The notes beneath the pieces were generated by a model. It did not search any database and was not told the origin of the DNA. It worked only from the letters and a program-made list of their open reading frames with translations. This document shows positions 7,561 through 35,915 of a stretch of DNA of 52,676 bases, piece after piece. Numbering within the stretch: the first letter of the stretch is position 1; each line of letters begins with the position of its first letter. Position numbers and translations under genes: made by a program. This stretch comes from a virus. Location of the stretch: positions 1-52,676 of IMG/VR virus record IMGVR_UViG_3300007346_005272; one strand, 5' to 3'.

Positions 7561-8298
7561 TCAGTCAGCCAGCGCTGCCCAAGTCTTCGGACCAACAACG
7601 CCATCAGCAGCAAGACCCTCATCACGCTGGAACTGCTTCACAGCACGCACAGTCTTCGGACCAAAGTCACCGTCAACGCCAGAGTTCTTACGAGGACGAG
7701 AAGTCAACTTGTAACCATTCTTGTCAAGCAGCTTCTGAAGGAACTCAACAACTGGACCCTTGTCGCCCTTACGCACCACAGTCTGCAAACAAGCAACGAT
7801 AAACTCAAAAGCCTTAGCCAGCTCAGACTTAACAGAAGCCTCCTTAGGAACCTTGATTTCACCCTTAACAGGGAACCACTCCATCTTAGAACCGCTAACA
7901 CGGCACGGCTGATGATGCCACCACTCCGAAGCCACGGTCTTACGAATACCGTACTCTTCAGCAATCTTGTTTACCTGTGAGGTAGAGATAGCGCCCTTCT
8001 TGATAATACGGAAGTCAACCGCATAACCGTAACCATCAAACTTTGGCTGGCTCATATGATATGAACCCTGGAAGCCTGCACGGTTGATGCGGTCAGGGTT
8101 AGCTGCCAGATTGAAACCGGGCCTACGGCGCTTATAGCCATCATACAGGTACTTCTGCTGCTGATAGGTGCGGACACCAGACACAACAGCAACCTTGCCC
8201 GCAATACGCTGATCAGCGAAGAACGCTTCCAGACGGGCCTTAAACTTCGGGTGAAGATCCTTCACGTTCACCCTGCTACTTGTAACAGGAATAGTCAT
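7561..8298 (-). CDS. Endolysin: M15 (VanY-like) peptidase with C-terminal peptidoglycan-binding domain
   Basis: This 245-aa protein has two domains. Residues ~10-130 carry the M15/VanY zinc peptidase signature: SGVRTYQQQ (40-48), the ligands H81 and D95 in SYHM...GYAVDF, and EWWHH with E125 and H128. Residues ~175-243 are a PG_binding_1 repeat (GPVVEFLQKLL, VDGDFGPKTVRAVKQFQ, DGVVGPKTWAAL). The predicted action is cleavage of peptide cross-links in peptidoglycan. ATG at 8298 follows AAAGGA. There is no signal peptide, so export would need a holin. It lies between the tail tube and chaperone genes and has its own terminator and candidate promoter upstream, so it may be expressed separately. 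A virion-associated lysin is a less likely alternative. Confidence 0.88.
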   Translation of the reverse strand: MTIPVTSSRVNVKDLHPKFKARLEAFFADQRIAGKVAVVSGVRTYQQQKYLYDGYKRRRPGFNLAANPDRINRAGFQGSYHMSQPKFDGYGYAVDFRIIKKGAISTSQVNKIAEEYGIRKTVASEWWHHQPCRVSGSKMEWFPVKGEIKVPKEASVKSELAKAFEFIVACLQTVVRKGDKGPVVEFLQKLLDKNGYKLTSRPRKNSGVDGDFGPKTVRAVKQFQRDEGLAADGVVGPKTWAALAD

Positions 8299-8911: not shown

Positions 8912-10459
8912 TTAAACTAGAGGATCACTCAGATTGCTCTTCGTGACCACAATGTCAATCAAATCAGCCACGCCAGAAACACGCACACCAACAGTAGCTT
9001 TAACTAGACCAGTCGCAAGCTGCGAGTTGGGGTTGTTGGTGGCATTAACCGAAACCGTGTAACCCGGATCAATTTGTGCACCTTCAATATCAAACGCAGC
9101 ATACAGACCATCCTGAAGAGCGATCGGCTGAAGGAAGTTCTTGATTGAAGAACGAATGTTTGCAAAGAGGTTGCCTCGTGCATCAATCGTGGAGAAAACA
9201 AACCGTTCCATACGATCCTCAATACCGATCACAATGTAGTTCATTGTGTCCTGCTGAGTGATGTAACGCCAGTTGGTCTCATCGTTAGAAGCCGACCGGG
9301 CACCATACACACGGATTGAGTTATTTACCTTGCGGATAGCGTTGATTCTGGCCTTATCGAGAGTTTCAGCAGTGGTAGGAGTAACGTCCTGATAAAGATC
9401 AGAAATGCCTACCGCTGAAGAAATCACACCGGCACCGGCACGCCACGGACCGCCCGCCGCATCAACCGCTTTAGCTCTAGCAGCCGCAGCGTAACTTTCC
9501 GGAGAAATGTTGATCGTGGAAGTCGTAACAGTTGACTCACCCGTCGCAAGCTCAGCAGAGTTAGGTGAAGTAACCTTAATGTGTGGCCAGTAGAAAGCCA
9601 TGCACTTAGCGTTTGCGTCAGAGTAGTACGATGAAACGCTGGTCTTAGCCGTAGCTGACGAATCACCCAGGGTGAAAGCACAAAGGGCAATACGGTTGTT
9701 GTTAGCAGCGTGGGTACGCAAAGCGTCCCAAACCGCAGTACCAGTGTAACCCGGAGCTGCAACAGCGCCACTCTTAAGGTTCACGCTGAAGCACGTTGAC
9801 ACATCCGGATCGGAATCGAATGTACCATCAAGCGCATCCACGATGTGATCCGCTGTGACTGCCGTACCATCTGACCCTCCAGAAAGGTTCGTGTCAGCAA
9901 GCGAATCTGGGTCATTCGATGAAGTTGCGTCGTCAGCAGCAACGATCAGATGACTGACCGTTGAAGAGTTGACGAACGAAACAGCATCATCAACATCCAC
10001 AAGATCACGACTAGACAGAAGAAGTGTGCTATCTAGCGAAATCTTAAGCCGGAAATAACCGGAAAGAATGTTGCTGTCATCGCTGTTGTTCTCAACAGCG
10101 ACAGAAAGGTTGTTGCCCCAAGCGCCCTTGTTCTTTGACGTAAGCGTCATAGTAGCAGAACCGCTTGAATCGTTCAACGTAATCGAAGAAGTCGCCGCAT
10201 CGTCCGCATCATAGTTGATCGCACGGAACACATAGCAACGAGAACCGCCCTCATCAAAGAAGGTCTTCACGTGGGAATACATATTCCCTGACTGGTAGTT
10301 ACCATAGTAGGTCGTGTAGTCGCTGAAGCTGCGAAGGAGCGTAGGCTCAGTCGTTGATCCACGCTCAGCAGTGCCAACCATAAACACCTGTCCAGCCACA
10401 TTGTTAGTAGTGCCCACAGGACCAGTACGCACTGCAGTGGTGACATTAACTCCCGGCAT
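8912..10459 (-). CDS. Tail sheath protein
   Basis: This 515-aa protein forms the contractile sheath. The start is set at ATG 10459 (MPGVNVTT) because GGAGG lies 6 nt before it; an ATG 12 nt further upstream would place that site inside the gene. The N-terminal GVNVTTAVRTGPVGTTNN...VFMVGTAERG and the C-terminal part (NAIRKVNNSIRVYGARS, WRYITQQDTMNYIVIGIEDR, then the VVTKSNLSDPLV end) are typical of phage tail sheaths. The middle (~100-330) is a Ser/Thr/Asp-rich variable domain that would face outwards. It proves a myovirus-type tail. Confidence 0.95.
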   Translation of the reverse strand: MPGVNVTTAVRTGPVGTTNNVAGQVFMVGTAERGSTTEPTLLRSFSDYTTYYGNYQSGNMYSHVKTFFDEGGSRCYVFRAINYDADDAATSSITLNDSSGSATMTLTSKNKGAWGNNLSVAVENNSDDSNILSGYFRLKISLDSTLLLSSRDLVDVDDAVSFVNSSTVSHLIVAADDATSSNDPDSLADTNLSGGSDGTAVTADHIVDALDGTFDSDPDVSTCFSVNLKSGAVAAPGYTGTAVWDALRTHAANNNRIALCAFTLGDSSATAKTSVSSYYSDANAKCMAFYWPHIKVTSPNSAELATGESTVTTSTINISPESYAAAARAKAVDAAGGPWRAGAGVISSAVGISDLYQDVTPTTAETLDKARINAIRKVNNSIRVYGARSASNDETNWRYITQQDTMNYIVIGIEDRMERFVFSTIDARGNLFANIRSSIKNFLQPIALQDGLYAAFDIEGAQIDPGYTVSVNATNNPNSQLATGLVKATVGVRVSGVADLIDIVVTKSNLSDPLV

Positions 10460-10592
10460 AATTGCCTCCATATTATTGTAGTTACAATACTAGTATTGAA
10501 CATGCCCTGCGGGGATACGCAAAGCGTACGCTCTATCAAATTTTATTTTACCATGCGAGAAGTAAAGTCGAGTGTAACTAACGTGACTACGG
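10460..10592 (-). promoter_or_regulatory. Leader of the tail sheath gene with 14-bp palindrome and candidate extended -10
   Basis: This gap lies between the small gene ending at 10593 and the sheath start. It holds a perfect 14-bp palindrome CAATACTAGTATTG (10485-10498), 26 nt before the sheath ATG. It also holds an inverted TACGC/GCGTA pair near 10515-10528 and an extended -10-like TGGTAAAAT on the minus strand (10545-10553). No convincing -35 box was found. The palindrome could be an operator or a 5'-UTR hairpin; which one cannot be decided by eye. Confidence 0.4.
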
Positions 10593-10808
10593 TCAAGAAT
10601 CAGATTGTTTGTTTAACTTTTCACGTTCTTCTTCGATAACAGCATCCCAATCAACAGTTCCCTTGTCGTTTAAGGGAAGACTTGTGCGTTTCACAACCTC
10701 CGCATAACGGCTCAAAACCTGTTTCCGGTACTCAAGCACATCTTCACGAGTAGGGGCTACTGTGAGAGAATAGTCTCTTAGTTCTTCAAGTTCTTCTTCT
10801 GTACTCAT
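10593..10808 (-). CDS. Small acidic protein, unknown function
   Basis: A 71-aa, highly charged, helix-rich protein (STEEELEELRDYSLTVAPTR, AVIEEEREKLNKQSDS). It follows the 61-aa gene by 4 nt and precedes the tail sheath leader, so it is co-transcribed with the 1950-aa gene. There is no obvious ribosome binding site for the ATG at 10808, which suggests translational coupling. I do not recognise a family. A minor tail or head-completion role would be guesswork. Confidence 0.6.
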   Translation of the reverse strand: MSTEEELEELRDYSLTVAPTREDVLEYRKQVLSRYAEVVKRTSLPLNDKGTVDWDAVIEEEREKLNKQSDS

Positions 10809-10812
10809 ATCG

Positions 10813-10998
10813 TTAGTCTAACTCATCTAAGGTCGCAGCGGGGTCGCTGAGTAAAGAATTCTTTTTGCGAGACTTACCGTCGTCCCAAAAATCTTGACCA
10901 GTGCGTGCTTTACGGGTGTGCCGCAACCAATAATCACTTTGTTCCCTTATCTTAGGGTCTCTTAACAGCTCTCGCCACGTTTTAGCTGATGATCTCAT
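10813..10998 (-). CDS. Small basic protein, unknown function
   Basis: A 61-aa protein rich in Arg/Lys (TWRELLRDPKIREQSDYWLR). It starts at ATG 10998 with AAAGGA at a good distance, just after the 1950-aa gene. Its C-terminal SDPAATLDELD recalls the ATLDELD that occurs inside the 1950-aa protein (residues ~1562-1568), so the two may be related or interact through that segment. Otherwise no family is recognised. Confidence 0.6.
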   Translation of the reverse strand: MRSSAKTWRELLRDPKIREQSDYWLRHTRKARTGQDFWDDGKSRKKNSLLSDPAATLDELD

Positions 10999-11010: not shown

Positions 11011-14000
11011 TCAAGAAAATCTAGGCCACAAGCCCGTACTTAAATAAGCAAACACTGCTGCTTCCTTAATGTTGAAATTATAGCCGCCTTCAGGACGCTC
11101 CGATCTCCACGGCTTCAAAAGATCATTTGATAACCAGTTAACAGGTCTAGAGCTACCTAACACAACAATCTCAGATTCTTCACCCTGACCTAAAGAACCA
11201 GTAGTAATACGAGGATTATCAAGATATCCGATACCCATAATAAGTTGAGCAGGAACCACATCATGCTGAAGAACGTGGGTAGGCTCACCCAGTTCACCAA
11301 CCTCTGCCATCTGTTCTATCCTATCGTCAGCAGTACCATACTTATTGCCAGCAAACCCCAAAGCAATCCCTATGTCGGTACTCCACGACTCCAAACCGCG
11401 AGTCACAGATGGTTCACGTCCACTAGGAAGCCCGTCGTCATCCCCAACAACATTCGGGATGTAAGTACCTCTAAACACACTAAGTTCAGTAATACCCGCA
11501 TCTTCCAAGTATTTCTGTGTTGTGGAATACTGACCTCTAACCCAAGCATCAATAAACGGTGTCAGAAGTTCTTGAATTTCAAAAATTTCTTCTATACCGG
11601 CATCAATCTCTGAGGGTTCATGAGAAACATCAATATCAAACTCTTCTCCCAAAACTGTTTTAACACGTTCAGATAAGAAGTCCCAATGGAACACTTCACT
11701 TCGCGCTTCACCCCAATGGATTTGAATAGCTTTAGCAATCCGACTCCCCACCCATGCTTCATTCTCAGTCACTTCTTTTTCATACTCTCTCATTTGTGAA
11801 GGAGTAAAACCAGTAGTATCTCGTTGACGTGAAGTAATTAAATCATTTATTGCAGCAAAAATTTCATACGTTGCATCAGTACGTTGTTTACCAGAAAGAG
11901 AACCACCAAGCTCAAACGCTTCCTCTAGCTTTTTCTGCAACGGCAACAAATCATCCTCAGTAGACAATTCCGCCACCACCGTTTTTAATGCTTTCTGATC
12001 TTCCCTTAAATGCACACCATCCACAACATCAGCCACAGGACGAGGCTTTCCTTCATGAATATCTGGAACAGAAGAGCCAGTCAAACGATCTTTATCCCAA
12101 CCCGTCAGTTTTTCAGGCCCTGGAGGAAGCCCAAAATCTGGCGCAGACGAACGAACCGTATCCAACTCATCAAGCGTGGCAGTCATATCATCCACAATCG
12201 TGGGACGAGCTTCGCTTTGAACAATTTCTACAGCTTCAGGAATAGTACGCCACTCGCCCATTCCCGAAACCTGCCAACCGCGTGCCCCGTCAACTGACGG
12301 ATTCACCGTAACGACACCAACTTCATTAGGGTCAAGATCAGCGTACGCCTGATAATTAGGAGTCCAAAACAGAGGGTCGGGACGGTTCGGAACATTGTAC
12401 TGCCGCCAATACGAATATTCTCTATAGAAATCTCCACGCTCTTCCATCGTAGACGGCGTAGCTGATAAAAGTCTCTTTCTCTCATTTTCTGGCATGCTCT
12501 TAGTCCAGGCAGCGATCTCCGACTTCATTCGCTCCACGGCAGCTGGCCCCGTATCGTCACGGACAGCTTCACGCATTTCATGAATACCACGAACGATCGA
12601 ATCCGCAACCAACGGGTCAGTCGTAAAGCTAATAGCGTCGGATACGCCGCCGCCCAACCCTGCAGGAACTTCACCTGATTCGTCTCTTAACTGGGCACGA
12701 GTTTTAAACCCTCCATCTTGCAAACCACTCAAACCTGTAGTTACATGTAACAATCCTTGTGGAAGGTTTTCCCACATGCCTCTCTCAGCCCTAGCGGAAT
12801 AACCATACCGCTGCCACGCCTCCGACCTCTCATCATTTTCAGTACCCCAAACCTCTCTAGGGTTACCTATGTCAATCTTATTTAGTACGATAGCCCGAGT
12901 GATTTCAGCTTGCCAAGCCTTTTCGATTTCACGCCTAACTGTCATAGCCGCATCAGCGTCATCCGATGGCAGGGCATCGTAAACTGATCCAATATCAGCA
13001 AGGCCGGGTCGCTCATCTCTAGGCACGGGTAAACCATCATCAGCAATAACTTGCGTCTTAAACAACTCAGGACGCTCTCTCAATAATTCAACACCACGCT
13101 CCCATGTTACCTTCCCCTCTTCAGTATAGCCGACAGGAGGAGGCCCAGGCACCCAAAAACCGCCATCATCAGTTTCGACAACACCTCCCCCAGGAATCTC
13201 CGTAGACTCTGGAACGATATCATCAACCGACCGGGCCATAACCGAAGCCACTTCATCCTCAGCATCATCCAAATCATCAATCATTTCAGAAACAGCATCA
13301 TCCCGATCAGAACGCAACTGATCAGACAAACCACGCAACTCAGCCAAACGCTCCTTCTGCCGCAAAAACTCAGGAATCTTACCCTCATACTCGGCAAACT
13401 CTTCACGCTGACGCTCCAACCCCGCAACAGGATCAAGACCATCCAACGGCACATCATTCTCATCCATATAATCCAACAAACGCCACAACACCTGACCCGT
13501 CATCTCCGAATCAGCATCAGCCGTATGCCACGAGAAATCCTCCAACCCGAAAAACTCCTGCAACTTCTTCAACGAAGCACTACCCGGACCATCCTCAACC
13601 CCAGCACGCTTAGCAATATTGCCCAAACCCATCGTGTCAAAATACGTCACCTCATCCAAATCAAACGACGGCACACCATCAGGATCATGACGCTGACGCT
13701 CCAACTCCATACGCTTCAAATCAAACGCAGCATTATGCGCCATAAACACCACATCAGAACCATCAGAATCGCCATTAGCAAAACGCATAAACTCCTGCAA
13801 CACCGTAGGCATATCAGGCTGCTTCGCCAAAAACTCCGGAGACATAGGCTTACCATCAGCATCAATCAAATTCGCTTGAGACCAATCAGACAACTCATCA
13901 TACTCCACATTCACATACATGGAGAAACGATCAACAATCACACCATCAACATAAACCACGCCACCCAACTGAACAATACGGTCCTCATCAACCTCATCCG

Positions 14001-16863
14001 GATCCATACGCCCAGCAGTCTCCGTATCAAAAACCACCACACGCTTACCCTTAAGAAGCTGCGACACCTCTCTCCACGAAGTCGCCTCAGCCAACTCATC
14101 ACGCAAACCAGAACCAGCAAGATGCGGAGGAGGAGAGAACGGTGCCCACACCTTATCTACAAGAACACCATCTCTAAACAACTCAGGTTCGTCTACCTGT
14201 GCCTGAGCTAACTCGCCAAGAATTCTATTCTTCCGATCTTCCGACTCGGCATCAGAAAGCATTTGAGACGTGGCTGAAGGATCACTCGCAACCCTAGGAA
14301 GCAAGCTGCCACGCTGCTTCCCCTGATCTACATCCCTCACCACTCGACGGGCTTCGTAAGTGGAGTAGGCAGTATCTGCTTCTTGTCTACCTGCCAAAGC
14401 AGTCAAAGGAGGAAGGTCGTCTTCAGACCAGTCACGGTCCGTCAAAATAAACTTAAGCTCCTCAGGAATAATCTGCTTCGAATACTTGTCAAACATCTGA
14501 GGAAGATTGCTTTCTTCTCCGTCTGTACCTGCCGGAATTCTTCGCCTTCCTGTAACGTGAGCCGAAATTACTTCCGCTAAAACTTCCATGCTTTCAGTCC
14601 GCTCCATCCGCCTCTTGAGTAACGGATCTAAGCCGGGAGTGTTTTGTGAGACACCATACTTTATTTGAATATAATCATTAGGCGTATAACCCAAAATAGA
14701 AGATACGTAAGCATGGTCAGTGCTCCTCGTCCGTAATTCAAAATCTCTATTGTAAGTCTCAAGCCACGGCCTATTTTCACTTATCCACTGTTGGGGAGCT
14801 TGACGAATAGGTGAATCATTTCTAAAAATGTAATCACCATTTCTTTCTTGTCTGTCAAGCTCACGAAGAGCTTCTTGCCTACGACTTAACGTCTCTGTTA
14901 AAATAGTAACTCTACGAGCATTCTCAGGATCGTCTATCTGTTTCTGAATATTTTCGATCTCGCCCTCAAGACGTATCTTCTCTCTAAAGAAAGCATCTGC
15001 AGCCAACAAAGAATCAATCCGGTGAACCGCTTCATGCACAGCAACTTGGTCTAGAGGTGTTTCAGATAAGCCCACCTCCTGAAAATCATTACGCAACCTT
15101 CCAAGCGTAGCTAAACTCTTTAACCCCAAAGGAATATCTACACCATCAGGCCCATCATCAGGATTAAACCTCTTAATGGTACCGGCTTTCCGATCAATAA
15201 CTAAATGCTCATCTAAGCCCAACATTTGCGGAGTGAGGACTAACACGCCAGTTGCAGAATTAAACGTACCACCAATTTTATTGTCATCAAGCAGTTCAAT
15301 ACGAAGTTCTGTTGGACGATACTCAGGACTTAGACCATCTGTAGACTTTCTAATTTTACGCAACAAATCTTCATTCTCTGCACCGCCAGGAATGAAACGT
15401 AAAATGCCCTGCATTTTTTTATCTTTCAGGGTTTCCTCCGTAAACACGACTTTGATATCTTGTGGCTTAGTAACTTCTTTAAGCTCAGTTTTCAACTCAG
15501 CTAAACGTTCACGAAGCTGAGAAGCTAATGGATGTTCGCCGTCAGCCTCAAGTCTCTGAATTGCAATCTCACCTGTTTCAATGTCTCTCAAAACCTGACT
15601 AATAACATCAAAATTCTGATACTGTCCACTTAACTCACCGGCACGTTCAACTAACCGATTCTCAGGAATTATCCCCAAAGTAGAACTAAGCTCAGTAGCC
15701 TCATCAGCACGCCGTGCAGCTAAATCCGACTTTGCGCTAGCTACCGTCTGACCAATACTATCGCTACGACGCCTAAAAGCATGGCCTGTATAATATTCGT
15801 AATCTTTAAATCCGGCATTCTGTAAAAATAGCCTATCTATCAATTCGGGATTATCAGCCATGTACTGCAGCTGGTTTGCAAGACCCAAATGGGTTTCAGT
15901 GCTGCCCGTAGAAGCTGTATTCCTATCTAACCAATCAGCATGGTAACGAACCTTATCAAAATCATCAGCAGCATAAGCATTAATTAATTCTTTTATATGA
16001 TGATCGTGCCAAGTCGTCACAGGCAACGCAGCGGCCATCGCTTGTAAGAACCGAACGTCATCCTCGTCAACTGTCTCGATCATGTCTGCTACAGATCGCC
16101 TCCGTCTGCGTGCTTCATCTTCTAAAAACTTTAAGCGAGAACGAAAACGGCTAATAGATTGTCTATCGCCATCACGAAGCATAGCAGCCATACTTTCACC
16201 CAAAGTAAAGTTCGCATAGCGGTAAGAAGGAGACTCCCCGCTTCGGCCCGTAGGCTTGCCGTGTAACCGCTCTTCCATGTACTGAAACAGTGTGATGCGG
16301 TTACGACGCTCCGCAATATCTATTGCAGCTGCCCGCTTAACAGGAATATTATTTAAACCCCGTAGCCGATCTTGAGACGCTTGAGTTATTAAACCACTTT
16401 CAACAGCTTCATCCGATAAAAGGTACTCAATCTTCGGACGAAAAGCGGCAAGGGCAGCGGAACCTTTATCAGTTGACACATCCACTACATCCACATCATC
16501 AACCGCATCATCAAAACGAGCCGACTCAGCCAACGACGGCCCCAAAACCCCACGAGGCAAAATGCCCTGAGACTCCAAAAGCGAAGGCGAATCATCAGCC
16601 AACGTCCCCAAAGATCCACCCAACGTAGTAGAATCAGTATCTCTAAACGACGGCGTAAAATCCCAAACAGACCCGTCAGCACGAACAAACTCTACACGAC
16701 CACGATCAACCTGACCGTACTCGCTCCAAATCTCACCCGTATCAATAAAGCGCAAATACGCCCCTTTAGGGCGCTCCCAAATCGTTCCATCCTGAACAAG
16801 ACCATCAAGGTCACCGTCACGAGGAAACGGCACAAAAGGTACAACACGAGGTTTCCTAGCCAT
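11011..16863 (-). CDS. Giant 'polyvalent' protein: metallopeptidase motif, DEDDh exonuclease, two ADP-ribosyltransferase-like regions
   Basis: This 1950-aa soluble protein has no membrane segments. Domains in order: residues 15-32 hold DGDLDGLVQDGTIWERP, a motif common at the start of phage multidomain proteins. Residues ~480-800 are a metallopeptidase-like region with H610-E-A-V-H614 and a likely third ligand E764 in EVLAEVISAHV. Residues ~938-1140 are a DnaQ-like DEDDh 3'-5' exonuclease (D946/E948 in VVFDTETAG, D1048 in AHNAAFDLK, H1113/D1118 in HTADADSE). Residues ~1370-1550 look like an ADP-ribosyltransferase (ART)-like fold (H1373 in LLHVTTGL, ISFTTD, GEWR 1536-1539). Residues ~1790-1910 match an R-S-E ART (R1798 in VFRGTY, S1826-W-S-T-D, E1896-S-E1898). 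Such chains are described as polyvalent proteins ejected with phage DNA. ATG at 16863 follows TATAAT by 7 nt, suggesting a leaderless mRNA. Confidence 0.85.
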   Translation of the reverse strand: MARKPRVVPFVPFPRDGDLDGLVQDGTIWERPKGAYLRFIDTGEIWSEYGQVDRGRVEFVRADGSVWDFTPSFRDTDSTTLGGSLGTLADDSPSLLESQGILPRGVLGPSLAESARFDDAVDDVDVVDVSTDKGSAALAAFRPKIEYLLSDEAVESGLITQASQDRLRGLNNIPVKRAAAIDIAERRNRITLFQYMEERLHGKPTGRSGESPSYRYANFTLGESMAAMLRDGDRQSISRFRSRLKFLEDEARRRRRSVADMIETVDEDDVRFLQAMAAALPVTTWHDHHIKELINAYAADDFDKVRYHADWLDRNTASTGSTETHLGLANQLQYMADNPELIDRLFLQNAGFKDYEYYTGHAFRRRSDSIGQTVASAKSDLAARRADEATELSSTLGIIPENRLVERAGELSGQYQNFDVISQVLRDIETGEIAIQRLEADGEHPLASQLRERLAELKTELKEVTKPQDIKVVFTEETLKDKKMQGILRFIPGGAENEDLLRKIRKSTDGLSPEYRPTELRIELLDDNKIGGTFNSATGVLVLTPQMLGLDEHLVIDRKAGTIKRFNPDDGPDGVDIPLGLKSLATLGRLRNDFQEVGLSETPLDQVAVHEAVHRIDSLLAADAFFREKIRLEGEIENIQKQIDDPENARRVTILTETLSRRQEALRELDRQERNGDYIFRNDSPIRQAPQQWISENRPWLETYNRDFELRTRSTDHAYVSSILGYTPNDYIQIKYGVSQNTPGLDPLLKRRMERTESMEVLAEVISAHVTGRRRIPAGTDGEESNLPQMFDKYSKQIIPEELKFILTDRDWSEDDLPPLTALAGRQEADTAYSTYEARRVVRDVDQGKQRGSLLPRVASDPSATSQMLSDAESEDRKNRILGELAQAQVDEPELFRDGVLVDKVWAPFSPPPHLAGSGLRDELAEATSWREVSQLLKGKRVVVFDTETAGRMDPDEVDEDRIVQLGGVVYVDGVIVDRFSMYVNVEYDELSDWSQANLIDADGKPMSPEFLAKQPDMPTVLQEFMRFANGDSDGSDVVFMAHNAAFDLKRMELERQRHDPDGVPSFDLDEVTYFDTMGLGNIAKRAGVEDGPGSASLKKLQEFFGLEDFSWHTADADSEMTGQVLWRLLDYMDENDVPLDGLDPVAGLERQREEFAEYEGKIPEFLRQKERLAELRGLSDQLRSDRDDAVSEMIDDLDDAEDEVASVMARSVDDIVPESTEIPGGGVVETDDGGFWVPGPPPVGYTEEGKVTWERGVELLRERPELFKTQVIADDGLPVPRDERPGLADIGSVYDALPSDDADAAMTVRREIEKAWQAEITRAIVLNKIDIGNPREVWGTENDERSEAWQRYGYSARAERGMWENLPQGLLHVTTGLSGLQDGGFKTRAQLRDESGEVPAGLGGGVSDAISFTTDPLVADSIVRGIHEMREAVRDDTGPAAVERMKSEIAAWTKSMPENERKRLLSATPSTMEERGDFYREYSYWRQYNVPNRPDPLFWTPNYQAYADLDPNEVGVVTVNPSVDGARGWQVSGMGEWRTIPEAVEIVQSEARPTIVDDMTATLDELDTVRSSAPDFGLPPGPEKLTGWDKDRLTGSSVPDIHEGKPRPVADVVDGVHLREDQKALKTVVAELSTEDDLLPLQKKLEEAFELGGSLSGKQRTDATYEIFAAINDLITSRQRDTTGFTPSQMREYEKEVTENEAWVGSRIAKAIQIHWGEARSEVFHWDFLSERVKTVLGEEFDIDVSHEPSEIDAGIEEIFEIQELLTPFIDAWVRGQYSTTQKYLEDAGITELSVFRGTYIPNVVGDDDGLPSGREPSVTRGLESWSTDIGIALGFAGNKYGTADDRIEQMAEVGELGEPTHVLQHDVVPAQLIMGIGYLDNPRITTGSLGQGEESEIVVLGSSRPVNWLSNDLLKPWRSERPEGGYNFNIKEAAVFAYLSTGLWPRFS

Positions 16864-16888: not shown

Positions 16889-17761
16889 CTACGAAGACGG
16901 CGTGACCTCTAACGAACTTGCAGAATATGCGCCAGTACCGCCAGCATTCAAAGCAGCCACCCGGAACTTGTAACCAGTCCCGTTCGTCAAACCAGTCACC
17001 CGATAGAAACCCTCGACCGAACTTGTATCGGCAACAGCAGTAGACCACGTGTCACCATCATCAGTGCTTTGCTGAATCTTGTAACCAGTGATCTCATGAA
17101 CACCACCATTCCACGTGGCCTCAAGCCAAGACAGCGTAACTTCAGTATCGCCCGCAACCGCTACAAGGTTTGTGGGGGCATTCGGAGTAGCCGCCATCTT
17201 TTCTACAGTAATCTCAGAGGACTGCATAGTGCCTAGTGCAGTGCGGGTCAGAGTTTCTTCAAGGGTCAAAGAGTAACCTATGTATGACCCTGCCAGTAGT
17301 CGCTCACCTTTAATCAAAGTTAAATCAGAGAACTGCTCTACAATAGTCCCCTCATCAATCTTTGGCGAGCACGATACGTCAGTATCGTAAGCAGAAAGCG
17401 AGGGATGATCCATCAATGCTTCACGAACAACAGTTGTCAAGTTATCTCGCTGATCGGTGACAGTCTGAGCACCCGCATCCCGAACCCAAACATAGGTACG
17501 CATATCGTACACAACCTGCAAATCCGGATCAAACCCCGCCGTATAACCAGCTCGATTAATAGAATCAGTGCTCATGACAATAGTAATAATCGTCGGCCAT
17601 CTATCAAGCTGAAACGGCTCATGGCTAACATACAAACGAGGATCAGGCAACTGACTGGCGCTCAGGTTCCAATGGTTCCTGTAAGCAACCAGCCTAGAAG
17701 GCAGATCTGCTGCTAAATAATTGGTAACAAACTGTTTAGCCAAACGGCTTCCACTCATCAT
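16889..17761 (-). CDS. Tail terminator-like protein fused to a fibronectin type III domain
   Basis: This 290-aa protein has two parts. Residues ~1-190 (LAKQFVTNYLAADLPSRL, YDMRTYVWVRDAGAQ, a DNLTTVVREALMDHP helix) have the size and pattern of tail terminator/gpU-like proteins, encoded after the neck proteins. Residues ~193-288 are a classic FnIII domain: APTNLVAVAGDTEVTLSW, ITGYKIQQSTDDG, YRVTGLTNGTGYKFRVAALN. Ig-like and FnIII add-ons on virion proteins are usually surface exposed and may help adhesion. Start ATG at 17761 (Met-Met). It is encoded in series with the tail-completion protein and precedes the 1950-aa gene. Confidence 0.7.
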   Translation of the reverse strand: MMSGSRLAKQFVTNYLAADLPSRLVAYRNHWNLSASQLPDPRLYVSHEPFQLDRWPTIITIVMSTDSINRAGYTAGFDPDLQVVYDMRTYVWVRDAGAQTVTDQRDNLTTVVREALMDHPSLSAYDTDVSCSPKIDEGTIVEQFSDLTLIKGERLLAGSYIGYSLTLEETLTRTALGTMQSSEITVEKMAATPNAPTNLVAVAGDTEVTLSWLEATWNGGVHEITGYKIQQSTDDGDTWSTAVADTSSVEGFYRVTGLTNGTGYKFRVAALNAGGTGAYSASSLEVTPSS

Positions 17762-21428: not shown

Positions 21429-23378
21429 TCATCTCACGGGACAACTTCCCGTTGAGCATTCGGCGTCAAACTCATCGTCCGACATGATCGTGGAACCTGA
21501 CAGCTTCTCACCAAGCTGTGACGTAGTGCTGAGCACATGCTCGTACTCTTCCTTAGTCAACTCGCCCATCGGGGCCTGATCGAAACCATGCTCGCTGTGC
21601 AGCAAGAACGAAACGGACTTCATCTCGCTCCAATGCTCCGCAAGGTACTCACGAATACCATCAAGTTCTTCGCTCTTGTAGTAGACAGTCACCGAAATGG
21701 CGTTGTCTGACCACACCTTCTGGAGACGACGAACAAGGTCCATCTGCTCAATCGCAGTCATGTCCTTAGCTTCGATCGTCCCGTCAGGGAACGCACACGG
21801 GAACTCTACAACAACAGTCCGGTCATCTTCTGAGCCATCAAAGTTGCGGAGAGGCTCAACGTAGAAGCCCTTCGACTTGCAGTAGTTGACAAGAACGTCG
21901 GTGGAAGCCATACGCATACGCTTCACAAAGTACTGGCTAAAGCCGGGGTGAACGCCAGGGGTTACACCCGGAAGAAGGCTCAGCGTGCCAGAAGGCTTGA
22001 TCGTGGTAAGACGTACAGACTCAGGCCAGCCACGCTCTTCTGACCACTCGGCATCAAACTCACGCAGAGCGACATAGGTGTCGTCCAGCCAATCAATCTT
22101 TTCCATGGCCTGCGTCACGCCAGTGATACCTAGGCCGAGACGCATGTTTGTTGACGTGATCTTGTCTGAAGCAGGGTCAAGGTAAGACAGCGCCGCTGTC
22201 GCCTTCTGGACCTTGTACAGCAACTGAGACACGTCCTGAAGCTCTTCCGACGAGTCAATCATCGGCAAGAAAATCTCAGACAAGTTACAAGACTCACGGT
22301 TAGCCAACGGGATTTCAGCGCAAGGGTTGACGCCCACAATCGACGGATCGGGACGCTCTTCGCCCATACGCCCAAACTGGCGTGAAGCTTCGAGGTTGAA
22401 GAACCCGTACGGCTCACCATTACCCTTGTAGCCTTCCCAAATAAGCTCCGGCATGTCCTGCATCTGTTCCGGAGAAACGAAAACAGTGTTGTTTGACATG
22501 GCTCGCTCAATCGGAATATCGCCAAGGTCCCAACGCTTCGCCATCAGGTAATCTTCATCGTCTAGACGGCCAACAGCAATTTCAGCGCTGCGGCGAACGT
22601 TACCGGCGACAACGATAGAGCCAATGATGTTCATGCAGTCAAGAACCTCAACTGAAGTCATCGTGCGACCAACCGCACCGTCAAGAACGGCACAAATCTT
22701 CTCAATACCCGAAACGAGAATATCGGGACCTGAAGCAGTGCCGCCGAACGTCTTAATAGGTACACCCGCCTTGCGGATCAGGTGAGTAGCGTACGTCATC
22801 TTACGAGGATTGTCGTCGTCGCCCAAGTAGCACTCAAAGACCTTCCGGACTGCTTCGCCCCAACCCTCACGGGTATCAGGCACTATGAAATCAGAATCGT
22901 CAGCGTCATGATGCTCAACCCAAGCTGAACGAACAACACCCAGACGCTCAGGCTTATCGCAAGAGAAGCCCACACCGCCGCCAAGCATCAGCCGCTCTAC
23001 GGCCCAAGAAAAATCCGTGGGCTTCTGAACATCAACAAACCAGCAGTTGACCAGACTATCGCCACCCAAACGCTTGTTGTTCGGGGTACCCATCTGCCAA
23101 AGCATTCGGCCAGCAACGGAAGCCTTCAAGTTGAACAGATAGTCATAGAGGCGGACAGCCTCATCTTCCGACAACTGCGCCCCAATATCCTGAGCGCCGT
23201 TAACGACACGCTGAATCGTTTCGTGCCATTCCTCAGTACGAACAATTGTGTCGCCCTCAAAAATAGGGCGAGCATAGGTCCGCTTGTAAACAATATAGCC
23301 TAATCCGTTAAATCCCCACGGAGGCATCTTATCAGCATATGAGGCGGCATGGTCGTCGGAAATAAAAAAGGGGTCCAC
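21429..23378 (-). CDS. nrdJ: Adenosylcobalamin-dependent class II ribonucleoside-triphosphate reductase
   Basis: This 649-aa monomeric RNR of the Lactobacillus leichmannii type reduces ribonucleotides to deoxyribonucleotides using coenzyme B12. Visible active-site residues: N-terminal C112 (LVNCWFVD); N351-P-C353-A-E355 and C364 in NPCAEIPLANRESCNLSE; SGTLSLLPGVTPGVHPGFS near 475; and the C-terminal redox pair C641/C646 in CSTGSCPVR. The NGEPYGFFNLEASR region (~320-333) is also family-typical. The start is GTG at 23378, supported by AAGGAGA 8 nt upstream. It is slightly shorter than the ~740-aa bacterial enzyme. It lies in the non-structural island with an Nmad1-like protein. The host or phage must supply B12. 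Confidence 0.95.
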   Translation of the reverse strand: MDPFFISDDHAASYADKMPPWGFNGLGYIVYKRTYARPIFEGDTIVRTEEWHETIQRVVNGAQDIGAQLSEDEAVRLYDYLFNLKASVAGRMLWQMGTPNNKRLGGDSLVNCWFVDVQKPTDFSWAVERLMLGGGVGFSCDKPERLGVVRSAWVEHHDADDSDFIVPDTREGWGEAVRKVFECYLGDDDNPRKMTYATHLIRKAGVPIKTFGGTASGPDILVSGIEKICAVLDGAVGRTMTSVEVLDCMNIIGSIVVAGNVRRSAEIAVGRLDDEDYLMAKRWDLGDIPIERAMSNNTVFVSPEQMQDMPELIWEGYKGNGEPYGFFNLEASRQFGRMGEERPDPSIVGVNPCAEIPLANRESCNLSEIFLPMIDSSEELQDVSQLLYKVQKATAALSYLDPASDKITSTNMRLGLGITGVTQAMEKIDWLDDTYVALREFDAEWSEERGWPESVRLTTIKPSGTLSLLPGVTPGVHPGFSQYFVKRMRMASTDVLVNYCKSKGFYVEPLRNFDGSEDDRTVVVEFPCAFPDGTIEAKDMTAIEQMDLVRRLQKVWSDNAISVTVYYKSEELDGIREYLAEHWSEMKSVSFLLHSEHGFDQAPMGELTKEEYEHVLSTTSQLGEKLSGSTIMSDDEFDAECSTGSCPVR

Positions 23379-28362: not shown

Positions 28363-30936
28363 TCACTTATCCAAATCAACTAAGAAGTCGCCAGGGTCAC
28401 CATCAAAGATGGCAACATCTGGGACTTTCGCTCCAGCATACACTTCCTCGTACAGATTCCACAACGTGCGCCTATACCATTCTTCAGTTTGCTCTGTTTT
28501 AGGAATCCGCTCCATGGCCTCACGAAGACCTTCCATTACTTTAGCTTTTCTACGAGCATAATCCGTAGGATAATTCCACAGGCGGCGCTGCGCTTCCCAC
28601 ACAATAGACTGTACCTCACGAGGATTCAATCCATATTTCTCAGCTATCCGAATAGCTGCTTCCCTGGCTGCCCAATAGTTTCCATTGAACCCGCCCGACC
28701 CCGGCTTTGGTTTAAACGAAGTCTTCATTATCTCATCGTTGGAACCAATAAGCATCAACAGAGATGCGTTAAAATGGTGCGTGTCTGCAGTCAAACTCTT
28801 GAACCTAGTATCGTTAGGATCAACAATGTTGTTATAGAAAGATCTAACTTTTGACTGCGTGCTCAAGTTATCAGTGATAAACCGCTGCACGAATTCCCCT
28901 GTACCCAAATCAGGATTCTCTTTATCTGCCTTAAGAATACGAGCAACTTTAGTCCAAGGATCATTTTCAGCATTAGCAGCATGAGAAGTAGTTCCCTTCG
29001 CTTTTTTCAAAACAAAAGAAAATGAGCCATCAGCGTTCGGAGACATTCCAACTTCTCGAATAACATCCCCATCCAAACCAAACGATTCTGAAGCTTTTAG
29101 AACTTTACCCAAAACAATATCTGGCTGATCAGAAATTCTACCCGCCATATTTCCGCCCATAGACTCGACCCACTCGGCAGCTGTCGTGGTATTAAACACA
29201 GACAGTTCTTCTGTTAAGCGATCAACACGGGCCTGTGCCGTTTTAACTGAAGCTAAATGCTTTTTCGCTCTACTCTTCTTCTGTTTTAACTCGCTTAATC
29301 TTTTTTGAGCAGCCATCAACGAGTTTGCTTTTGTGGCAGCAGCGGACGCAAACATACGCTCCGCCACATCAGCCATAGGGGGATCTTCTTTAAAAATCCT
29401 AACAGCATTAATTGCCGAAGGTACATTGCGCTCCCAGGAAGTACCAGCAGACAAAACCGCCATTGCTGCTGCAGCGGTCTCTACCCGCACGCCATGCTTA
29501 TCAGCCGTATTGTTAGCCAAACGATTAGCCGCATCATACCAAACCTGCGTAAGTCTAGCATCATCAGTCAAATTGCCATCAGCATCAACCATGCTTCCAC
29601 GCCGCATAGTTTCTTCAAGATTAGCCTCCATGTGACCAATCACCCAATCAAGCTTCTCCTCATCAGAAGCATCAGGACCAATTCCAGCATTCTCCATCAA
29701 ATCATTTAGATGCGGATAGCCTTTAAAAATATCCGCAACAATAGACTTGCGTTCAGCATCAGTAACATCAGCAAGACGTTGAGTCTCTGCAGCAACTCTG
29801 GGAGTAGCACCCGGATTTCCTACGACAACACCCGCACGTTCTCTAGCCGCATCACCACGAAGCAAACCAACAATCTCATCCGCATCAGCCTGCCTCAAAG
29901 TAATAAGCCGATCCGTAACAGAATCCTGCTTACCACGCATCGTATCATAATCCGAAGTAGGTAAACGACCAGTATCAGCCATAAACCGTTTAACCCCAAC
30001 AGAGTTACCCTGCTCCGACAACTCCGCAACCAACGAAGTAACCGACGCCGCAACCTCATCAGCACGGCCATCATCCAAACGGCGACGCAACTCAACAACA
30101 GCAGGATGATTCGACTCAGAAGCCTTTTCAAGGAAATCAGCAAGCGCCTCTTGATCTCTCAAATTCACGCCATCAACCAAAACACCCGAATGCGAAACCG
30201 GATGCAAACTCATCCCATCATCATCCGAAGAACCCATAATGTCCAAAGGACTCCGAGACGGATTAGACAAAACAAAATCCATCAAAGCCAAACGAACCAC
30301 ATCATCAGTATCCGCCTGCGACACACTCATCTCCGGACGCAAATCACGAGTATCCCCAACCACAACCGAATCAGGCATCTCCATCAAAACCGCAAACGAA
30401 CCATTCTCCCCAACGTTACTAGCCACACGCATACGGCCCTGAGCAAAACCAAACTCCTCAGCAACACGAGAAGCCAAAATCTCTACACGGCCAGCATCTT
30501 CCAAAGCATCCTCACCATCATGATGCTTCAAACCATACACCACGCCAGTAGACGTATCCCGAAACTTCAACATACCGTCCGGAGTTGTACGATCCGCAAT
30601 AACCTCAAACCGGCCACCACCATCAGCAATATCCCGAACAATCGTTTCACCTAAAAACTCGTCAGGCACCGCAGACAACGAACCGCCATCAACAACATGA
30701 TAAACCGCCGACTCAACATCACCAATCGACGTATTTCCGTTCTCTCTACTAACAACCGTGGGCGCACCAGTAACCACACGCTTCGGATCAAGATCAGAAC
30801 GATAATCTGGATTATACCGCTGCGCCACACCATTAGGGGTACGTGGACGAGTAGGATGAACTTCGCAGAACATCTTCTCAGCAATCTGTTCAATTATTTT
30901 GTTAGTAATAAAACTCTGTGTAGAAAAATCAGACAT
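28363..30936 (-). CDS. Large multidomain head-operon protein (degenerate kinase-like region and conserved phage C-terminal domain)
   Basis: An 857-aa soluble protein. Residues ~110-260 recall a HipA/lipid-kinase-like fold: MLKFRDTSTGVVYGLKHHDG with K137, EILASRVAEEFGF, a FAVLMEMPDS hinge, and LALMDFVLSNPSRSPLDIMG where functional enzymes have N-x-DRH. The catalytic Asp appears lost, so activity is doubtful. Residues ~540-580 are coiled coil (RLSELKQKKSRAKKHLASVK). Residues ~675-790 match a domain frequent in phage large proteins (KVRSFYNNIVDPND, TADTHHFNASLLM, NPREVQSIVWEAQRRLW), which I remember as a DUF7178-like segment. It is 1 nt from the 1600-aa gene and probably packaged or ejected with the head contents; that is inference. 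Confidence 0.65.
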   Translation of the reverse strand: MSDFSTQSFITNKIIEQIAEKMFCEVHPTRPRTPNGVAQRYNPDYRSDLDPKRVVTGAPTVVSRENGNTSIGDVESAVYHVVDGGSLSAVPDEFLGETIVRDIADGGGRFEVIADRTTPDGMLKFRDTSTGVVYGLKHHDGEDALEDAGRVEILASRVAEEFGFAQGRMRVASNVGENGSFAVLMEMPDSVVVGDTRDLRPEMSVSQADTDDVVRLALMDFVLSNPSRSPLDIMGSSDDDGMSLHPVSHSGVLVDGVNLRDQEALADFLEKASESNHPAVVELRRRLDDGRADEVAASVTSLVAELSEQGNSVGVKRFMADTGRLPTSDYDTMRGKQDSVTDRLITLRQADADEIVGLLRGDAARERAGVVVGNPGATPRVAAETQRLADVTDAERKSIVADIFKGYPHLNDLMENAGIGPDASDEEKLDWVIGHMEANLEETMRRGSMVDADGNLTDDARLTQVWYDAANRLANNTADKHGVRVETAAAAMAVLSAGTSWERNVPSAINAVRIFKEDPPMADVAERMFASAAATKANSLMAAQKRLSELKQKKSRAKKHLASVKTAQARVDRLTEELSVFNTTTAAEWVESMGGNMAGRISDQPDIVLGKVLKASESFGLDGDVIREVGMSPNADGSFSFVLKKAKGTTSHAANAENDPWTKVARILKADKENPDLGTGEFVQRFITDNLSTQSKVRSFYNNIVDPNDTRFKSLTADTHHFNASLLMLIGSNDEIMKTSFKPKPGSGGFNGNYWAAREAAIRIAEKYGLNPREVQSIVWEAQRRLWNYPTDYARRKAKVMEGLREAMERIPKTEQTEEWYRRTLWNLYEEVYAGAKVPDVAIFDGDPGDFLVDLDK

Positions 30937-30937
30937 A

Positions 30938-33900
30938 CTAACACCCTATCTCGTTAATGTCTGCCGAAGAAAGATCAATAACACCTTCATCAATAGTAAA
31001 ATCACCAAGCTTCTGATTGCTTCTATCTGCATAACTACCCAAAGCATTAATCTCATCAACAGATGTTATTCTACTAACAGAACCTGCCGGAATGAAGTCA
31101 TTGACTTCATCCATCAAAGCGAGGGCCTCAGCATTGTTAAATGATAGATAAGAGTCTTTGAACAACTTCACAACGTGGCCCTCATGCTTGCTGCCAGTCT
31201 TAGCCCGCAAAGCTTGTACGAATTCAGGATACTGCGCCCAGTCTTTAAATTTATCATCACCGAGCTGCAAATTTTGATTCAGTAGCGAGGCTACACGATC
31301 TCGCTTACTGTCGTCTCCGTCGAAAACCAGCAACGCAGTAATCTGGTAACGAGACAACGACTGGCCTTTATCTATAGCGTCTTTAGCCCCGTCATAATTC
31401 TTAACCAAATCCCTAAACGCTAAATTCAAATTTTTAATCTTATACTCTGTGTTAGAACGGACACCTTTCTTCGGCCAAACATATTTACCGTCCCAACCCA
31501 CATCAAGATTATGATTTTCTTTAAAGCCCGCAGCAAACGCCATGCCCAAATATCTAGCGTTGAGCAAATCAGAAATTCCACGCTTTCTATTGTCCAGCTT
31601 TAGAATACTGCCATCAGGTAAGGGCACTGAAAAAGGAAACTCTGGATCATCTCTACTGTTTACAACCACATAGTCGTGCTGTACGCTATAACTTCCATCA
31701 GATGAGAAAGCTAAAGTACGTACCACATTACCCGTGGGGCTGACCTTCTGACGAGTTAACTCATTTCCGTCCTCATCAAATACCGTCACATACAGATCAG
31801 AAACCAAACCCAATTCATCGAATGTGGAGATATAAACACTGTCTGCATTTGACACGTTATCAATCTCAACCATTACTGGTCTATCGTCATCTGTTCTAGC
31901 ATCATACGCAGCTACGATCGTACGCTTGCTACGATCTTTAGCATCCTTTGGATCAGACGCATTTAAAAGCTTCAACGCCCACTCGCCTAGCTTTCCTTCA
32001 GACTGAAGCCGATATAAAGTGTCATAAGGTGTTTCGCCCGGAAGCGAAACATCATATTCCTCTGGTGTTAGCCCCGAAAGCCCCAACGTCAGAATTCCCT
32101 GCGTGCTTGCTTTCTTCCTTTCCCGGATAGCAACCTGCCAGACAGGAACATCGTTTGGTCCAGGCAGCAAATCAGGGTCATTCACAACATAATTAATTTT
32201 TCCAGCAACATCGCCTATTGTTTTGGCACGGGCATCTCTAAATTCTGTTTTGAAAGCAATCAAAGCCGCCAAATTTTGTTCTGCGCCGTCCACCCCATAC
32301 AAGTTATCAATAGACATCTGCAAAGATGCCATAGCGACCACAAACTCACGATCGCTAATACTTCTGACAAGTCTCTCAATATCTCGATCGTTATCTAAGA
32401 ACTGACTATACAATCTGTCCAGATCCTCGCCCGCTCTGGACATGTTTGAGCTAACACGCTGCAGTTCAAAACCACGCTTCATATGAGAGATCGTGTCTTT
32501 CAGAACTCTTTCAGTCACTGCTTTATCTTCTGCCGAATAAGTTAATCCAGCAGCATCAGCACGCCTAAACATATCATTAATCATGGCATCAGCAACTGAT
32601 TCATACATGCTCACGTTGTGTATATCCTTAACAGAACGTCCCAACATTCTCTCAAGCTCTTTTTCCATAACAACGTTCTTAGTGAAAAGATCGTACGCAT
32701 CGCCTTCCGAAGCATTTAACTGAGCGTAAACACGATCAACCATACGTGCCGCATAATCTTCAACATTATCAAGATACTCGTTTTCTGAAGTAGACAAGAT
32801 GAGGTAAATCAAAGCCTCTTCAGATCTTTCAGAACTTGGGCGATCCAACTGACCTAACTCTCGCCTTCTTCTATCTGCCGTTAAATTGTAAATGGTGTCA
32901 TACGCCATGCTTAACATTCTACGATCCGGGCCGTATCCTTCAGTCTCAGCAATCCGCCCTAACGCATAAGACAAATACGAGTACTCTTCCAAAGAAAGAC
33001 TATCCGGATCCTCACCAACTTTCGCCACATACTTCGACACCTGATTTACCATGGCATCACGGAACTGCTCCTGCGTAAGCCCCAACCTGCGATCTTCCTC
33101 ATCAGTCTCGGGCATCGGTAACTGGTCAAGCAGATCAGCATAATCAACCATGCTTGCCACATCCCACAAACCGTCTTGATCGTTCAAATCTATCAAAGCT
33201 TCAATGCGTTCTTCTGCACGCTCACCTACAGACAGGGCCGTCACACCCTCTTCTGCGACTTCATCAACCGTAGTCGCTACACGTCGATTCTCTGCAATAC
33301 CAACAAGACGACCAGCAAACTCATCAATATCGCTATCAAGTCGAGCAGCAGACTCCAAACCCGGCGACCGAATGCCGTAAAAATCTAGATACGCCTGACG
33401 CTGCGCCTCAACCGTGGCGATATCCTGCAACCGTGAAGCCAACGCCTCCCAAGACGGCTCATCCAACTCATCAGCCCCACTAAACTGAACACGACGCAAA
33501 GCAGCAGATAAATCATTACCGATGTTATCCAAAGCTGCACGCACATCATCAGTCAACGGAGGCATATTCACAGGAGTCAGCCTATCCAACTGATCAACAG
33601 GAGGAAGCCGCTCTGACAACTTATCAAAGTCAGCAATAACCTCATCGAAAGCAGCCTGAGTCTCAAAGACACCTTGCCTGAAACTTCCCTCTTCGATATC
33701 ATCTACAATGACACCAGCCAAGCGACCTGAGCCGGGTCTGTTGCGGGCAAACTTACCACGAGCATCCTGCAAATTACCCAAGCTTAACATCGTGGAAGAC
33801 CTCAAACTACGGCCACAAGTAGTGCCACGCATATTCGTTAACTGACCGCCCCCAGTAAAACCAGGGGGACAACGATAACGACTGATCGACGGATCAAAGA

Positions 33901-35746: not shown

Positions 35747-35915
35747 CAGAAGCCTTTCCATCGTCCAAGGGAACGTACTCTACAAGCACATCATCCTGAT
35801 AAAAGTATTTTACCGTATCTTTGTGCCAACTATCGCCTACAACAGCATTGCTGCCTACATTAAATAATGCCTCATTTGCCTGACTGATCACTTGCTCTAA
35901 GCGAGCGGGTCTCAT
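35733..35915 (-). CDS. Small unknown head-operon protein
   Basis: A 60-aa protein from ATG 35915 (MRPARLEQVISQANEALF), with GGAAGGGG 9 nt upstream; the in-frame TTG at 35924 is less likely. Helical N-terminus, a KYFYQDDVLVEYVPL strand pair and an acidic tail. It lies between the acidic head protein and the 1600-aa gene and overlaps the latter slightly. No family is recognised. Confidence 0.55.
   Translation of the reverse strand: MRPARLEQVISQANEALFNVGSNAVVGDSWHKDTVKYFYQDDVLVEYVPLDDGKASDDGN

Follow-up and report, generated by a model that had tools for sequence, protein, structure and literature searches.

A conserved leader on a giant multi-domain protein, a putative virion-borne effector in a cargo slot of uncultured contractile-tailed phages

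Introduction

Polyvalent proteins are giant multidomain chains that combine unrelated activities, are encoded among virion late genes and have been predicted to be injected (PMC5512222). One phage-type MPTase typically has an Asp three residues past its HExxH motif (Iyer et al., PMC5512222). The internal proteins of T4 have diverse bodies and a conserved capsid-targeting sequence (CTS) (PMC3012670), and MuF toxins, encoded in the packaging module, join a virion-linked N-terminal part to variable C-terminal effectors (Jamet et al. 2017, PMC5576092). T4 Alt, an R-S-E ADP-ribosyltransferase (ART), is packaged in the head, and its gene alt adjoins the tail tube gene 54.

Here we analyzed a giant gene in a linear IMG/VR virus record of 52,676 bases, hereafter the window. 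Like polyvalent proteins, its product is a giant chain encoded among virion late genes, with an HExxH motif followed by an Asp three residues downstream. Its unrelated activities are in part predicted, since a profile identified the exonuclease, whereas the peptidase and the ART were recognized from motifs and conserved residues; injection would likewise be a prediction. Unlike polyvalent proteins, it bears an N-terminal leader that is absent from Pfam. The window protein also gave no match at E<=10 to PF18818 (MPTase-PolyVal) or PF18760 (ART-PolyVal), neither being obligatory for the class, and DnaQ, the type of its exonuclease, is absent from the main text of the polyvalent-protein paper (PMC5512222). 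Proteins with this leader resemble T4 internal proteins in having one conserved, presumably targeting element and diverse bodies, and resemble MuF toxins in placing a putatively virion-linked N-terminal part ahead of variable C-terminal effectors. However, the MuF domain had no Pfam or PHROG match in the window protein, and the slot that holds the giant gene lies beside the sheath gene instead of in the packaging module. The ART predicted in the window protein is, as in T4 Alt, of the R-S-E kind. The original prediction regarded a place among tail genes as unusual for such a protein; it is less so than claimed, given the position of alt, and since alt lies beside a tail gene while Alt is packaged in the head, a location near the sheath is uninformative on head versus tail.

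Results

The window encodes a portal, an S78 protease, a major capsid protein, a head-tail adaptor, Neck1, a sheath, a chaperone and a tape-measure protein, and on sequence grounds its source is a contractile-tailed phage. The genes run in the order adaptor, Neck1, fn3 protein, giant gene, two small ORFs and sheath (Table 1), which agrees with the tail-operon location first proposed. The finer placement between tail terminator and sheath is correct as to the position ahead of the sheath, but the name tail terminator for the 290-aa fn3 protein is a positional assignment. Gordonia phage sheaths share about 35% identity with that of the window and Arthrobacter phage sheaths 31%, so an actinobacterial host is plausible, if unproven; a scan of genome contigs with the sheath and ART alignments gave no match. 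Cultured Arthrobacter and Gordonia myophages (EastWest, Colucci, GMA6 and ChisanaKitsune) share the neck-to-sheath order and a related sheath, but have a gene of 90-109 aa ahead of the sheath and no giant cargo. The giant gene is on the minus strand, a detail that the original prediction left out; its frame is intact in every complete relative, and a chance reading frame was rejected. We found no sign of processing, so the label polyprotein in the original prediction is not borne out.

Table 1 Features of the giant gene and its surroundings in the window.
Feature	Residues	Position	Strand	Basis or remark
Giant gene (1950 aa, P0001)		11011..16863	(-)	ATG to stop; open in relatives too
N-terminal leader, incl. 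LGTL-type linker	1-105	16549..16863	(-)	leader HMM; common to cargo with unrelated bodies
Leader core, PRDGDLDGLVQDGTIWERPKG	14-34	16762..16824	(-)	invariant in A1; alignment
Predicted zincin-like metallopeptidase region	403-805	14449..15657	(-)	HE..H..D conservation; low-confidence model
HEAVHRID	610-617	15013..15036	(-)	located by script (HEAVH 610-614)
DEDDh 3'-5' exonuclease	938-1140	13444..14052	(-)	Pfam RNase_T, PHROG 192, PDB 2p1j
Swappable module	1240-1590	12094..13146	(-)	LLHVTT (1371) and SFTTD (1412)
Swappable C-terminal module	1575-1950	11014..12141	(-)	holds predicted R-S-E ART core
Predicted R-S-E ART core	1703-1921	11101-11757	(-)	motif, conservation, shuffles
290-aa protein, upstream border of slot		16889..17761	(-)	related at its N terminus to Arthrobacter phage EastWest gp14; fn3 at the C terminus
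Tail sheath, downstream border of slot		8912..10471	(-)	PHROG 23 5.5e-36
71-aa ORF		10593..10808	(-)	homologs present in relatives
61-aa ORF		10813..10998	(-)	terminates in KKNSLLSDPAATLDELD

Small ORFs downstream of the giant gene share the C-terminal peptide KKNSLLSDPAA(T/S)(L/I)D(E/D) in the window and in the related phages L006, L008, L009, L011, L027 and L029, and in L008 the giant protein, which is shorter, terminates in this peptide as well; the common ending may be either a tag or a deletion scar. Elsewhere in the window, a B12-type ribonucleotide reductase gene (21429-23378 (-)) lies between the capsid and neck genes, and an endolysin-like peptidoglycan-binding protein (7561-8298 (-)) is encoded within the tail operon. 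The head operon encodes a 1607-aa protein (30938-35761 (-)), which has no leader and whose first 555 or so residues are shared with leader-bearing giants of other phages, and an 857-aa protein (28363-30936 (-)) that carries DUF7178.

A sheath scan yielded 45 loci for comparison of the slot between the fn3 protein and the sheath. In 17 contigs, whose sheath is 58-62% identical, the slot is empty, with about 130-180 bases and no notable ORF. Other slots hold a protein of the window family or proteins of 289, 942, 955, 1031, 1975, 2366 and 2408 aa, so that slot proteins span about 289-2996 aa; their bodies are mostly different, with some modules in common. The leader HMM matches the start of every slot cargo. 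Whole records with an occupied slot each contain the leader a single time, and it is missing from three empty-slot records (52-128 kb). Many related phages thus do without a slot protein, and this comparison marks the slot as a dispensable cargo site.

The leader is a domain of about 75-105 residues, unlike the T4 CTS, which is a short peptide. It carries the motif D-A-D-x-D-G-x-V-Q-E-G-T-x-W-E-R-P (consensus in the alignment, spanning about 75 residues: EPYxPDAxDADNDGIVQEGTAWERPAGT...RVVDRDGNxVxYxPSY), and LGxTLGTL-type linkers often come after it. Its core resembles an EF-hand/dockerin-type calcium loop, and the D-x-D-x-D-G loop may bind Ca. Of the environmental viral stretches found in a leader scan, 259 were confirmed and 79 loci were kept, 20 of which have the tail-slot neighborhood; the others lie just downstream of the portal or in head operons ahead of the MCP. 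Some head-operon leaders are internal, at about residue 630-695 of a giant that is related to window ORF 30938-35761, some sit near the beginning of the ORF after this giant, and in some phages they directly precede variable regions. A tblastn search of the leader against 50,697 cultured phage and 72,556 plasmid records returned none, although BLAST low-complexity filtering could have masked the Asp-rich loop.

Several leader proteins have a distinct architecture. Those of L105, L111, L124 and L128 contain 2 or 3 leader copies per protein, each ahead of a new block. The loop, as DGDxDGLVQDGT, also occurs on small Lys/Ala-rich proteins in L144 (682-1068 (-)) and L122 (18783-19121 (+)), which look like DNA-associated internal proteins. 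In L018 (8060-18082 (+)), a 3340-aa head-operon protein has a mid-chain leader loop, pentapeptide-like repeats and, by eye, an apparent C-terminal Fic motif, HPFEDGNGRT.

Behind the leader, every residue named in the original prediction was found in place by script. The sequence assignment of the DEDDh exonuclease is secure, and the claim of a DnaQ-type enzyme thus stands: the region matches Pfam RNase_T (PF00929; 6.6e-11, 43.5 bits against a cut-off of 24), PHROG 192 (1.2e-22) and the PolC-type PDB entry 2p1j, and the full catalytic residue set is present, with FDTET at 945 (D946/E948), AHNAAFD at 1042 (D1048) and HTADAD at 1113 (H1113/D1118). This pattern arose in 0 of 2000 composition shuffles. 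The domain is 37% identical to a homolog that L055 and L085 carry immediately after the leader.

The metallopeptidase assignment is probable, judged from the motif, invariant residues and sister proteins. HExxHxxD is invariant among relatives down to 22% identity; 2000 composition shuffles produced the bare HExxH 60 times and HExxHxxD 3 times. D617 agrees with the Asp position described for the phage-type MPTase, and a weak PF18818 match was present only in the sister cargo L099. In a low-confidence model, E764 is the candidate third zincin ligand and the order of secondary structure fits a zincin core.

The same kinds of evidence make the R-S-E ART a probable assignment. The motifs FRGTY at 1797 (R1798), SWST at 1826 and ESEIV at 1896 (E1896/E1898) were located by script in the order of the R-S-E clade (R, S-x-S/T, E-x-E), a pattern that arose in 1 of 2000 composition shuffles. 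R1798, S1826, E1896 and E1898 are invariant across 7 ART modules that are 46-98% identical to the window module. The window protein had no match to PF03496 at E<=10, a PDB profile search with the 7 ART modules returned only weak unrelated S-layer matches, and profile comparison with T4 Alt, ModA and ModB, using shallow profiles, scored no better than unrelated controls. Searches of cultured phages by tblastn with the whole protein and with the ART core gave none beyond weak unrelated matches. The metallopeptidase and ART claims of the original prediction are therefore upheld as conserved motifs with invariant residues, but neither domain had a Pfam, NCBIfam or PDB profile match in the window protein, unlike the exonuclease. 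AlphaFold2 models (pLDDT 51 for residues 1-870 and 42 for residues 1300-1950) were too poor for a fold assignment.

Comparison of relatives revealed frequent exchange of modules, while the border genes remained stable in close relatives (sheath 68-88% identical, 290-aa protein 70-92%). The module at residues 1240-1590, possibly an H-type ART-like domain although unproven, is common to L008 and L009 and missing from L006, L011, L027 and L029. The giant protein of L008 (1612 aa) has no ART and is apparently fused to the small-ORF tail. L006 and L011 (about 2657 aa) have extra KptA-like ART-type and DUF3626 matches, both under curated cut-offs, L029 contains the R-S-E module twice, and L009 carries an additional YRG-type insertion. 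The exonuclease is missing from L027 and L029 and swapped in other cargo, so it is not a constant member of the set originally proposed, and with modules gained and lost a fixed three-enzyme set was rejected.

Profile matches were also found on other leader proteins. L122 has a PF03496 ART (2.2e-12) and a zeta toxin (5.1e-24), and L128 likewise has both domains; Arr-ms occurs on L138, RNase_T on L055, L099 and L111, DUF3626 on L111 and L126, and DUF7178 on L060 and L096, along with weak PI3/4-kinase-like matches. These domains on sister proteins, as context and not as proof, make the ART and peptidase predictions in the window more credible.

Discussion

We consider it fairly probable that the giant protein is a virion-loaded multi-domain effector, whose leader would target it to the virion and whose exchangeable modules would enter the host with the DNA. 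This agrees with the original prediction of host-takeover effectors, which likewise offered their delivery with DNA as an inference. The observed basis comprises leader conservation, the occupied and empty slots, module exchange and exonuclease homology. The strongest evidence is the conserved leader, the contrast of occupied and empty slots and module swapping, all three of which the original prediction overlooked. In such a mechanism, the constant leader would serve as a loading signal, and the body of exchangeable modules (a predicted zincin peptidase, the DEDDh exonuclease, an H-type domain and an R-S-E ART) would be packaged, ejected along with the DNA and act early in infection. The ART would ADP-ribosylate host proteins or nucleic acid, the exonuclease would degrade nucleic acid, and the peptidase would cleave proteins, perhaps in self-processing between modules. 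A point against this mechanism is that transit of about 200 kDa via the tail tube would require unfolding or processing. By analogy, the best reading is that the giant protein would work like T4 internal proteins, MuF toxins and polyvalent proteins.

The leader could instead have a structural role, as a tail or neck module by which the giant protein is fixed in the tail, with the enzymes acting outside or at the envelope, or with the protein aiding assembly. This would suit a slot that adjoins the sheath among tail genes, the loop motif on a 97-aa tail-operon protein just ahead of a tail gene in L021, and the loop in L020 on a protein with, by eye, a peptidoglycan-binding-like C-terminal region. 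We nevertheless regard an anchor as unlikely, as the slot stands empty in numerous relatives and is thus not essential, head operons use the same leader, and exonuclease, ART and zeta-toxin domains fit intracellular targets. Gene location is no proof of virion location either, and leader proteins might be non-virion late products of the infected cell that serve host takeover or superinfection exclusion, with the leader as a folding or processing domain; the proteins with two or three leader copies, in which it looks like an inter-module spacer, would be consistent with this. However, leader genes lie consistently among late structural genes and have the character of dispensable cargo, and late expression suits takeover poorly, which leaves this account rather improbable.

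Frequent gain and loss of modules, and the ART-less L008 protein with its apparent fusion, might also suggest an exchange-driven mosaic of decayed modules that has no present function. Frames of 1612-2996 aa are open in all complete relatives and the catalytic residues are invariant, and we give decay very little credence.

Returning to the virion-loaded effector, the leader and the empty or occupied slot appear undescribed within the non-exhaustive libraries and papers searched. There is roughly an even chance that the leader is an undescribed loading or ejection domain, common in uncultured phages but missing from the searched records of cultured phages and plasmids, by which different phages plug exchangeable multi-effector proteins into a head- or tail-operon slot. 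The leader-bearing set connects ADP-ribosyltransferases, zeta-toxin domains, nucleases and peptidases, and the occupied and empty slots provide natural comparisons. Should the leader prove to mark cargo borne by virions, it would offer a sequence handle by which uncultured phages could be searched for injected effectors, the majority of which lie beyond profile recognition, and how phages choose the proteins that they carry and inject would become directly testable.
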